A DNA stretch of 64,000 nt from assembly GCA_013001055.1 (NCBI GenBank), contig JABDNH010000015.1, positions 1 to 64,000 on the forward strand, in the 5' to 3' direction. Shown here piece after piece: positions 22,918 to 24,540 of the stretch. The translations under genes and the position numbers were made by a program. Position 1 is the stretch's first letter. Each line of letters opens with the position of its first letter. This stretch comes from Sphingomonas sp. (GTDB taxonomy: Bacteria > Pseudomonadota > Alphaproteobacteria > Sphingomonadales > Sphingomonadaceae). The notes below the pieces were generated by a model that had not been told where the DNA came from, searched no databases, and saw nothing but the letters and a program-made list of their open reading frames with translations.

Positions 22918-23277
22918 ATGACCCATGCGCTGGCAGTCTTTCTGGGCGGCGGGTTCGGCGCTGTGCTGCGCTGGCTGGTCGGCAAATGGACGCTGGCGGA
23001 ATTCGGTACCGGCTTTCCTGTCGGCACACTCGCGGTCAATGTCGCCGGCTGCCTGGCGATCGGGCTGGCGGTCGGCACGCTCGAAGGCGTCGGCCAGCCG
23101 GCCAAGCTGTTCTTCGTCACCGGCCTGCTCGGCGGCTTCACCACTTTCAGTGCCTTCGGTCTCGACACGCTGACCCTATGGGAGCGTGGCGAGACCGGCA
23201 CGGCAGCGCTCTATGTGGCGCTGTCGTTGGTGCTGTCGCTGGGGGCTGCGGCAGCAGGTTTCTTGATCGGGCGATAG
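22918..23277 (+). CDS. crcB: Fluoride-specific ion channel CrcB/Fluc
   Basis: A 119-aa four-helix membrane protein exporting fluoride as a dual-topology dimer. The family signatures are present: GGFGAVLRWLVG at the N-terminus, FPVGTLAVNVAGCLAIG (pore Asn) and GLLGGFTTFSAFGLDT (the TTFS motif with the central Na+ site and Phe box). It starts directly at the stop of the DUF808 gene, so there is no room for its own fluoride riboswitch. The last 67 nt overlap the 3' end of the convergent phhA gene. Confidence 0.94.
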   Translation: MTHALAVFLGGGFGAVLRWLVGKWTLAEFGTGFPVGTLAVNVAGCLAIGLAVGTLEGVGQPAKLFFVTGLLGGFTTFSAFGLDTLTLWERGETGTAALYVALSLVLSLGAAAAGFLIGR

Positions 23278-24053
23278 GCGGCGAGCCGCGACAGCGCGTC
23301 CGGATCGAGGGCTTCAAGTTCTGCCGCGACGTCGTCGAGCGCGGAGCTGACGAAATACATCGGCTGGAAGTGGTCGTTTTCGTAGGGCGTCGCGGCGGCT
23401 TCCTCGACGGTGAACAGTGGGCGCGGCACGTCATCCTCAAGGCTGCGCCGCGCTTCACCAAAGCTCGAGGCGAGGCCGGCGCCCAGGATGCGCGTTTGCC
23501 CCCTTTCGCGCACGAGTCCGAATTCGACCGTGTACCAGTAGAGCCGGCTGATGATGTCGCCGTGCCCTGCTGCGCAGGCAGCCATACCAAGGTTTCCCAT
23601 CGCCTCCATCAGCCGTGCCATAGGTTGGTAGGCGATCAGCGGCACATGGCCGAAGATGTCGTGGAAGCAATCGGGCTCTTCCAGGTAATCAAGATGGCGA
23701 CCATCGCGGATGAAGTTGCCCACCGGGAAACGCTTGTCGGAAAGCATCGCGAAGAATTCGGCATCGGGCACGATCCCCGCGACCGATACGCAGCGCCAGC
23801 CGGTGGCGGCCTCGAGGCGATCCGACAGGCGCTCGAGTTCCGGAATGCCGGGCTCGTAAAGCCCGAGCCGTTTCCAGCCGGCGAGGAAGGGCGAGACGAT
23901 CCGGCCGTCAAGCAACCGCACCTGACGTTCGTTCAGCCGGTCCCAGGTGCGATGATCCGCCTGTGTGAAGCGATGCCAGTCCTGCGCCACGAGATAGCGC
24001 TGCCAATCCGGCGTAGCGGTGGCATTGGCGGCACTGATCTTGGGCTCGAACAT
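23211..24053 (-). CDS. phhA: Phenylalanine-4-hydroxylase
   Basis: This tetrahydropterin-dependent, non-heme iron enzyme converts phenylalanine to tyrosine. The protein is 280 aa, the size of bacterial single-domain enzymes without the regulatory ACT domain. The iron ligands are His131 and His136 in CFHDIFGHVPL and Glu177 in YTVEFGL; FPVGNFIRDGRHLDYLEEPD is the pterin and substrate region. GGAG lies 7 nt before the ATG. Directly upstream are a terminator hairpin and a Tyr-rich leader peptide, so tyrosine-controlled attenuation is likely. The pterin-recycling dehydratase gene is upstream on the same strand. Confidence 0.96.
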   Translation of the reverse strand: MFEPKISAANATATPDWQRYLVAQDWHRFTQADHRTWDRLNERQVRLLDGRIVSPFLAGWKRLGLYEPGIPELERLSDRLEAATGWRCVSVAGIVPDAEFFAMLSDKRFPVGNFIRDGRHLDYLEEPDCFHDIFGHVPLIAYQPMARLMEAMGNLGMAACAAGHGDIISRLYWYTVEFGLVRERGQTRILGAGLASSFGEARRSLEDDVPRPLFTVEEAAATPYENDHFQPMYFVSSALDDVAAELEALDPDALSRLAAYRPIKKPAAAAPSDSTNDSAT

Positions 24054-24077: not shown

Positions 24078-24108
24078 AAAAAACCCGCCTGGCTATTCGC
24101 GAGGCGGG
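24078..24108 (-). terminator. Attenuator terminator in the phhA leader
   Basis: On the phhA strand CCCGCCT (24108-24102) pairs with AGGCGGG (24090-24084) around an 11-nt loop and is followed by six T (24083-24078). It stands upstream of phhA, only 24 nt before the start codon, so it would cut off phhA rather than end another gene. The 5' arm is shared with a competing antiterminator helix. Confidence 0.8.
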
Positions 24109-24160
24109 CGGTGGTCGGTTACGTCTTCCCTTGAAGTCTAACTCGTCTCCACCGCACGCC
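24103..24160 (-). promoter_or_regulatory. Antiterminator pairing in the phhA leader
   Basis: GGCGTGCGGTGG (24160-24149), which lies in the leader-peptide codons just after the Tyr run, can pair with CCACCGCCCGCC (24114-24103) in 11 of 12 positions. This helix takes up the 5' arm of the terminator, so the two structures exclude each other. A pause-type helix is also possible between CGCGCC (24189-24184) and GGCGTG (24160-24155). Confidence 0.65.
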
Positions 24161-24233
24161 TAATATAGGCATAAGCGTACGTCGGCGCGGCATAAGCGGC
24201 GCACATCGGTACAAGGGCGGTCCTGCGAGTCAT
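24138..24233 (-). CDS. Tyr-rich leader peptide of phhA (candidate attenuator peptide)
   Basis: A 31-codon reading frame between the pterin dehydratase gene and phhA. Its middle reads CAAYAAPTYAYAY, that is four Tyr codons in ten residues (14, 19, 21, 23), against roughly one in forty expected. ATG 24233 has AGGA 8 nt upstream; an in-frame ATG three codons earlier (24242) lies too close to that site. The stop TAG is 30 nt before the terminator stem. If tyrosine-tRNA is scarce, a ribosome stalled at Tyr19 or Tyr21 would leave the antiterminator segment free and let transcription reach phhA. If translation finishes, the terminator can form. The peptide itself need have no other function. This is inference from architecture; I know of no homologue to cite. 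Confidence 0.7.
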   Translation of the reverse strand: MTRRTALVPMCAAYAAPTYAYAYIRRAVETS

Positions 24234-24288
24234 TGGCTGCATCCTATGCAGAAGCGGCCGTGAAGGAAAGGTGAATTTCTACGAACCG

Positions 24289-24540
24289 TCAGGCGACCAG
24301 CTTGTCGATCGTCGCTGCGAGCGATGCATCCTTGTCGGTAAGGCCGCCCGCATCGTGCGTGGTCAGCGTCAGCGTCACCTTGTTCCAGACATTCTCGATT
24401 TCGGGGTGGTGGTTGGCCTTCTCGGCGGCGATCGCCACGCGGGTGAGGAAGGCGAAAGCCTCCGAAAAATCGCCAAATTCGAAACGGCGAATGATGGCCT
24501 TGCCCTCTTCGCTCTTGGTCCAGCCTACGGGAATATCCAT
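24289..24540 (-). CDS. phhB: Pterin-4a-carbinolamine dehydratase
   Basis: An 83-aa enzyme that dehydrates the 4a-hydroxy-tetrahydropterin formed by phenylalanine hydroxylase, so the cofactor can be recycled. The motif [16 protein letters not shown] carries the active-site histidines, and [24 protein letters not shown] is typical of the family. AAGGAGG lies 5 nt before ATG 24540. It precedes phhA on the same strand, 56 nt before the leader peptide, so phhB may be transcribed constitutively with attenuation acting only on phhA. Confidence 0.95.

Follow-up and report, generated by a model that had tools for sequence, protein, structure and literature searches.

On the minus strand of the Sphingomonas sp. 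contig stretch analyzed here (64,000 nt, called the window below), a short open reading frame with clustered tyrosine codons lies between phhB and phhA, followed by sequences able to form two RNA helices and by a run of six T that ends 24 nt before the phhA ATG (Table 1). The original prediction read this arrangement as a tyrosine-sensing transcription attenuator on phhA, and each element it named is in place: a 31-codon peptide with four Tyr codons (leader residues 14, 19, 21, and 23), two antiterminator strands pairing at 11 of 12 positions, and a terminator stem directly followed by the T-run. A scan of the window against Rfam at gathering scores returned only a 5S rRNA and two tRNAs, with no match to the T-box or any other Rfam leader RNA family.

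Table 1. Coordinates of genes and of observed or predicted elements at the window's phhA locus.
Feature	Position	Strand	Remarks
Putative promoter -35 (TTTCCT)	24264..24269	-	Best sigma70-like pair, spacing 17
Putative promoter -10 (TAGGAT)	24241..24246	-	3' end 7 nt before ATG; includes AGGA
Leader ORF, 31 codons plus stop	24138..24233	-	Layout conserved in 57/60 genus loci
Candidate regulatory Tyr codons	24194-24192, 24179-24177, 24173-24171, 24167-24165 (span 24165..24194)	-	
Arm2, antiterminator 5' strand	24149..24160	-	Core 24155-24149, within the last codons of the ORF
Arm3, antiterminator 3' strand	24103..24114	-	Core 24114-24108; covarying pairs
Predicted intrinsic terminator hairpin	24084..24108	-	Stem 24108-24102 with 24090-24084
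U tract, six T	24078..24083	-	From sequence
phhA, phenylalanine 4-hydroxylase, proposed controlled gene	23211..24053	-	PF00351, E 8.4e-39
phhB, pterin-4a-carbinolamine dehydratase, upstream neighbor outside the attenuator	24289..24540	-	PF01329, E 4.1e-30

The presence of a Tyr leader and terminator before phhA is confirmed across most of the genus. When 100 relatives were searched, phhA turned up in 57 of the 61 same-genus genomes (G000-G060); with a contig-edge fragment in G035 left out, the genus set comprised 60 phhA loci (L081-L140) from 56 genomes. In 57 of these loci (55 genomes), phhA is preceded by a Tyr leader ORF and a strong terminator; a conserved helix links the end of the ORF to the 5' edge of the terminator, and the distance from leader stop to T-run is 50-61 nt in all 57. 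The loci without a leader are L135 and L136 (both in G006) and L138 (the second copy of G009). The same layout filter was passed by none of 74 more distant named loci (L007-L080), nor by L005 or ten other-family loci (L141-L150). It also passed Sphingomicrobium lutaoense (L001), S. astaxanthinifaciens (L003), Sphingomonas arenae (L004), and a metagenome-assembled genome (L002), whose leader peptides are identical to ones already in the genus count. Sphingomonas parva (L006) fails the filter, although inspection by eye shows a Tyr-rich ORF as well as a hairpin followed by a T-run.

The Tyr codons are the conserved part of the leader peptide. Across the 57 loci, tyrosine accounts for 21.3% of the 12 codons before arm2, versus 2.1% in PhhA itself, and for 0.1% and 1.9% in the other two frames of the same stretch; these 12 codons hold at least two Tyr in 54 of the leaders and a single one in three, and in 42 of 57, 6 nt separate the last Tyr codon from the arm2 core. 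The retention of Tyr codons in relatives, a comparison that the original prediction had proposed, is therefore borne out, and a short ORF with clustered codons for the presumed end product precedes the gene of the enzyme that would make it. The pattern of Tyr residues varies between leaders (YYYYY, YYY, YY, YAYAY, and YRY), as does the N-terminal part of the peptide, and the leaders are about 17 to 48 codons long, according to which start is chosen. Codon usage differs as well: the leaders have 122 TAT to 24 TAC (146 codons), versus 117 to 148 (265 codons) in the phhA genes, a bias that might be tied to wobble reading or to queuosine on tRNA-Tyr. In L086 and L001 the stop codon is replaced by CAG and the ORF is two codons longer. 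Leaders of the GAGGTTGG and GGTGGGG types carry a strongly conserved CGCGCG (TGACGCGCG) right after the stop, for which no pairing partner was noticed.

These features also bear on how the peptide might act. If the leader encoded an arrest peptide, the signal for stalling would be free tyrosine or some other ligand acting through a Tyr-containing nascent chain, and not a lack of charged tRNA-Tyr; conservation of the Tyr runs above the rest of the peptide is compatible with this. However, the variation in Tyr number and spacing, in the N-terminus, and in length is more in keeping with codon counting than with a binding motif, and arrest on free tyrosine would be expected to give the opposite sign of control unless wired differently. 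We regard an arrest peptide as very improbable.

Two simpler accounts of the hairpin were rejected. A chance hairpin is ruled out by the conservation in relatives together with a background check, in which none of 12 other terminator-like sites in 190,134 bases of the 57 loci had an ORF with a Tyr pair at leader spacing, while 53 of the 57 phhA leaders passed the same strict Tyr-pair filter. The leaders had first been picked by a looser filter requiring at least one Tyr, and because 57 of 60 loci passed it, the resulting selection bias is slight. The hairpin might instead be the terminator of phhB or another upstream gene, with the Tyr ORF arising by chance and the start of phhA transcription lying farther downstream, as the closeness of phhB in the window could suggest (its end is 42 nt before the putative -10; 24289 vs 24246). 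But only 11 of the 57 leader loci have phhB no more than 400 nt from phhA; it is farther away in 24 and beyond the examined locus DNA in 22, and the layout accompanies phhA irrespective of it. In addition, the Tyr enrichment is limited to one frame, and the 24 nt between U tract and phhA ATG would seem too short for a promoter and a ribosome site, so that a phhB terminator is hardly credible.

The leader mRNA is probably leaderless, or nearly so, to judge from promoter spacing. With leader starts chosen by promoter score, which favors a short distance from -10 to ATG and makes the counts approximate, in 49 of 57 loci the distance from the end of the best -10 to the ATG is 6-10 nt; transcription should therefore start at or next to the ATG. 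Sigma70-like pairs resembling the window's precede the leader ATG in many relatives, their scores only modestly above those of shuffles (9.8 vs 8.4), and the scoring covered sigma70-like pairs only. A Shine-Dalgarno site for the leader is not supported, since an SD-like string occurs in just 3 of 57 leaders and the best -10 usually occupies the region near the ATG; in at least four loci (L084, L085, L090, and L095) the in-frame ATG picked as the start is judged to be wrong, and SD and start counts are approximate. The AGGA of the window does lie 8 nt before the ATG, as originally described, but is probably part of the promoter -10 rather than a ribosome site.

Evidence for the antiterminator comes from pairing between arm2, at the end of the ORF, and arm3, next to or within the terminator. 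Pairing was counted by scripts with arm2 fixed and arm3 searched for, and because such a search favors pairing, swapped and shuffled controls were included. Arm2 scores 20.9 with its own partner versus 17.9 (sd 0.4) with partners swapped between species, and none of 20,000 permutations scored as high; among 30 dissimilar representatives the values are 20.5 and 17.8, again with 0 of 20,000 permutations as high. With arm3 placed wherever between stop and terminator it pairs best, the 7-nt core forms all seven pairs in 40 of 57 loci and six in the other 17, and two-sided changes are found at six of the seven core pairs, one of these in a single locus. When arm3 is instead fixed beside the terminator, seven of seven pairs form in 35 of 57 loci, versus a mean of 11.9 (maximum 23) for swapped partners and 1.4 (maximum 6) for base-shuffled sequences at that place. 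The second half of the proposed comparison thus came out as the original prediction anticipated: arm2/arm3 pairing is kept in relatives and beats swapped partners.

What differs between groups of leaders is where this helix sits relative to the terminator, and three registers can be distinguished among the 57 loci. In the first, which includes the window and its near kin, the helix shares at least one base with the terminator, and its extension gives the 11 of 12 pairs of the window. In the second, GGTGGGG pairs with CCCCGCC in full overlap; L133 and L137 also belong here, and the leaders of two other genera of the family (g71 and g80) show full overlap by eye. In the third, GAGGTTGG pairs with CCAACCTC and GAGGCTGG with CCAGCCTC, and the helix abuts the terminator without overlap. 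Among abutting loci of the GAGGYTGG type, 16 of 17 core helices end 2-4 nt before the 5' arm of the terminator. In all, overlap is missing in 23 of 57 loci, where the best arm3 leaves 0-11 nt before the terminator arm, L093 among them owing to a misplaced arm.

A third helix, which the original prediction offered as a possible protector (24189-24184 with 24160-24155), can be drawn by eye in the window as six pairs, one of them G-U, but is not conserved: among the 57 naked leaders, the probability that the arm2 core pairs upstream exceeds 0.5 in 26, and it is 0.15 in the window. We do not treat a protector as a defining feature because other attenuators also lack a protector or pause helix 1:2.

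Because the leader RNA of the window folds only moderately better than its shuffles (z = -1.64; 15 of 200 fold equally well), its sequence alone proves little, and the evidence beyond chance for its structure is comparative. From sequence and fold together, an intrinsic terminator is predicted between leader ORF and gene. By the filter used, a GC hairpin with a T-run is present in all 57 leaders, and its stem columns are near-invariant across the leader alignment; the T-run lies 4-55 nt before the phhA start (with the start chosen, 85 nt in L137), and the terminator finder placed the 5' arm wrongly in a few loci, e.g., L083, L093, and L137. RNAalifold run on all 57 leaders gave the terminator only and did not recover the antiterminator, because the register of the latter differs between groups.

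Masked-base folding was used to approximate the effect of a translating ribosome, assumed to cover 12 nt counted from the first base of its A-site codon. For the window leader with its stop codon occupied, the predicted fold has the terminator and no upstream pairing of arm3; when Tyr codons are occupied instead, arm3 is paired upstream at P >= 0.90 in all loci and states tested. This measure counts any upstream pairing of arm3, not that with arm2 alone, and in 6 of 57 loci it exceeds 0.5 even with the ribosome at the stop. Geometry and masked folds agree in predicting that a ribosome at the stop codon would cover arm2 and that one at the Tyr codons would leave it free.

Stalling does not, at equilibrium, abolish the terminator: its predicted probability in the stalled state is 0.88-1.00 for the window leader and close to 1 for many relatives, with lower values, down to 0.39 in L084, in a few. 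The original prediction had called the two helices mutually exclusive, and in the window they do share positions 24108-24103, but the core helix and the terminator coexist at equilibrium there even though the full antiterminator of 11 pairs uses these bases, and in many relatives the two merely abut. In these models, exclusion of the terminator by the antiterminator appears not to be thermodynamic. Because the helices coexist at equilibrium and often abut, kinetic or steric blocking must be assumed. For growing transcripts of the window, the full antiterminator (-30.7 kcal/mol) is predicted to hold until the 3' end passes 24087, beyond which the terminator combined with the core helix becomes more stable (-35.0); this stepwise fold fits kinetic control, as is the case for trp. 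In the abutting group, antitermination would presumably act by steric hindrance. Coexistence and abutment could also be taken to mean that the Tyr codons matter but that the arm2:arm3 helix acts on translation or mRNA stability instead of on transcription; the GC hairpin with T-run in every leader, with its near-invariant stem, argues against this, and we consider such a role very improbable.

A covariance model of the leader was run over 298 family and 296 order genomes, two samples that overlap. Matches with E < 1e-8 are confined to the genus and two other genera of the family, g71 (G143 and G222) and g80 (G283, G326, G362, and G392), and at all six of the loci outside the genus, the leader stands directly before phhA and contains a Tyr-rich ORF, in one case with five consecutive Tyr. 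A true genus leader, that of G018, scores only 3.8e-8, so that the 1e-8 line can miss real leaders. Some matches with E > 1e-8 fit the terminator part alone. Occurrence of the leader on other genes was considered for nine weaker matches (L200-L208) and rejected, as their translations led us to judge them ordinary terminators; the weaker matches L169-L174 gave no PhhA match. In a rooted PhhA tree of 53 rows hand-chosen from 175, the 29 leader rows group together in a single clade of 31 (SH-aLRT 100), whose two leaderless members are L136 (G006, tyrA intact) and L138 (G009 copy 2, tyrA split). An earlier PhhA tree of all 175 rows required 3 changes of leader label versus 53.7 when shuffled and, being midpoint-rooted, was uninformative on nesting.

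In the lineage that carries the leader, tyrA is mostly missing. A tyrA match (PF02153) above cut-off is present in 3 of the 61 genus genomes (G003, G006, and G009, where it is split), in 29 of 39 other-family genomes of the same sample, and in 13 of 14 controls. In the family sample, tyrA is found in 263 of 298 genomes and is absent from 12 of 12 genomes with a strong leader match versus 23 of 286 others (Fisher p 1e-12, which overstates independence because the species are related; G283, G326, G362, and G392 are called tyrA-less from their absence among the listed PF02153-matching genomes). Since leader genomes mostly have no tyrA, PhhA is probably their source of tyrosine, and the main route to it in this lineage. 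With the comparative sequence evidence, the near-absence of tyrA supports the original interpretation of a tyrosine-sensing attenuator on phhA. The gene order of G003, aroA-pheA(PDT)-aroC-aroB-aroE-leader-phhA-GntR, lends further support, the leader and phhA closing a cluster for aromatic biosynthesis.

The correspondence between leader and tyrA is not strict in either direction. G003 has the leader together with an intact tyrA, and G009 has a leader-bearing phhA copy with a split tyrA elsewhere; in G006, where tyrA is present, aroE runs straight into phhA with no leader between them. The leaderless phhA genes L241/L138 (G009) and L240/L136 (G006) adjoin aroE in tyrA-bearing genomes. The tyrA of G009 consists of two fragments in different frames, beside the leaderless phhA copy. 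A PhhA search of 33 genomes, 30 of them tyrA-less, found phhA in 29; PhhA is present in 20 of the 22 leaderless tyrA-less family genomes searched (of 23), and in none of these 20 was an ORF with three Tyr among 12 codons seen before it. Several tyrA-less genera (L222-L237) have a different PhhA lineage, of 38-41% identity, before which no such leader was seen. As other tyrA-less genera are without this leader, loss of tyrA does not require it.

Other genes of aromatic metabolism qualify the role of PhhA. Because 54 of the 61 genus genomes carry hmgA, for the homogentisate dioxygenase of tyrosine breakdown (in that of the window at G000:C9:17559-18005), and this gene coexists with the leader-bearing phhA, PhhA may also serve catabolism. 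A search for prephenate dehydratase (PF00800) picked it up in just 14 of the 61 genus genomes and not in the window's own genome (G000), where chorismate mutase is present; in G000 and the other genus genomes without PF00800, phenylalanine may come from outside or from an unrecognized enzyme.

Taken together, computation shows conserved Tyr codons, their spacing, arm2/arm3 pairing, the terminator, the link to phhA, and a mostly missing tyrA. This supports classing the window's feature with elements that work like a ribosome-mediated attenuator: very probably, one that senses charged tRNA-Tyr controls phhA, itself the probable main route to tyrosine. We infer stalling, antitermination, and the direction of the response as follows. 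Transcription would start at, or a few bases from, the leader ATG. When tyrosine is ample, the ribosome would read through the Tyr codons, reach the stop, and cover arm2, and the terminator would then form and stop transcription before phhA. When tyrosine is scarce, the ribosome would stall on the Tyr codons and leave arm2 free to pair with arm3 once arm3 leaves the polymerase; the terminator would be hindered and phhA transcribed. The retention of this layout before phhA suggests an enzyme that is switched on when tyrosine runs short.

A more specific version dispenses with the shared strand. The helix formed on stalling, ending 2-4 nt before the terminator, would block it sterically, since the base of the terminator hairpin must enter RNA polymerase and an abutting helix could prevent that. 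Such an attenuator would have a single origin, in an anabolic lineage of PhhA to which tyrosine synthesis passed with the loss of tyrA, and its register would later have slid from full overlap (L133, L137; g71, g80) to abutment. We offer this tentatively and think it rather unlikely in its entirety.

If the attenuator is real, it would fill the tyrosine gap among amino-acid leader-peptide attenuators. It would also provide regulatory evidence that phenylalanine hydroxylase, usually called catabolic, can be a tyrosine-making enzyme. The overlapping and abutting natural variants offer a test of whether antitermination needs competition for a strand.

Leader-peptide attenuators are textbook systems for Trp, His, Phe, Leu, Ile/Val, and Thr. 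The phhA leader is like E. coli pheL-pheA and trpL-trpE in its general layout: codons for the end product, an antiterminator strand at the end of the ORF, and a terminator before the biosynthetic gene. It differs in that the codons are for Tyr and the target is an aromatic amino acid hydroxylase, that the ORF is probably near-leaderless, that a 1:2 protector is not conserved, and that the antiterminator often abuts the terminator. The pheL and trpL leaders of E. coli act by attenuation (PMC11802643, in the passages concerned). No dedicated tyrosine or phhA leader-peptide attenuator was among the matches listed in the open-licence PMC literature, and the main text of a survey of predicted attenuators (PMC2965389) contains neither 'phhA' nor 'tyrosine' nor 'Sphingo'. 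The passages concerned of a 2005 paper describe predicted attenuators before tyrA operons and leave phhA attenuation unmentioned; they also describe PhhR with sigma-54 in Pseudomonas aeruginosa as a protein activator of the catabolic phhABC operon (PMC1173090). That system likewise controls phhA, whereas the promoter candidate of the window, where only sigma70-like pairs were scored, is sigma70-like. In Dyella japonica and Legionella pneumophila, in which no prephenate or arogenate dehydrogenase was found, PhhA has been proposed to make tyrosine, the same role as suggested here; the relevant passages mention neither an attenuator nor Sphingomonadales (PMC7311316). Among the matches listed, the nearest described system is the aroR leader before aroF in Corynebacterium glutamicum, which contains Phe-Tyr-Phe and controls aromatic biosynthesis by ribosome stalling; according to the passages concerned, expression rises when Phe is limiting and does not depend on Tyr availability (PMC11802643). 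The aroR leader thus also has a Tyr codon, whereas in the phhA leaders Tyr codons dominate. For the start of the mRNA, the closest parallel in the literature seen is the trpL leader of trpE(G) in Sinorhizobium meliloti (peTrpL/rnTrpL), the RNA of which starts at the leader ATG (PMC7298713, in the part concerned); it too is alphaproteobacterial and leaderless, while the phhA leader has Tyr codons, stands before phhA, and has a leaderless start that promoter spacing makes probable.
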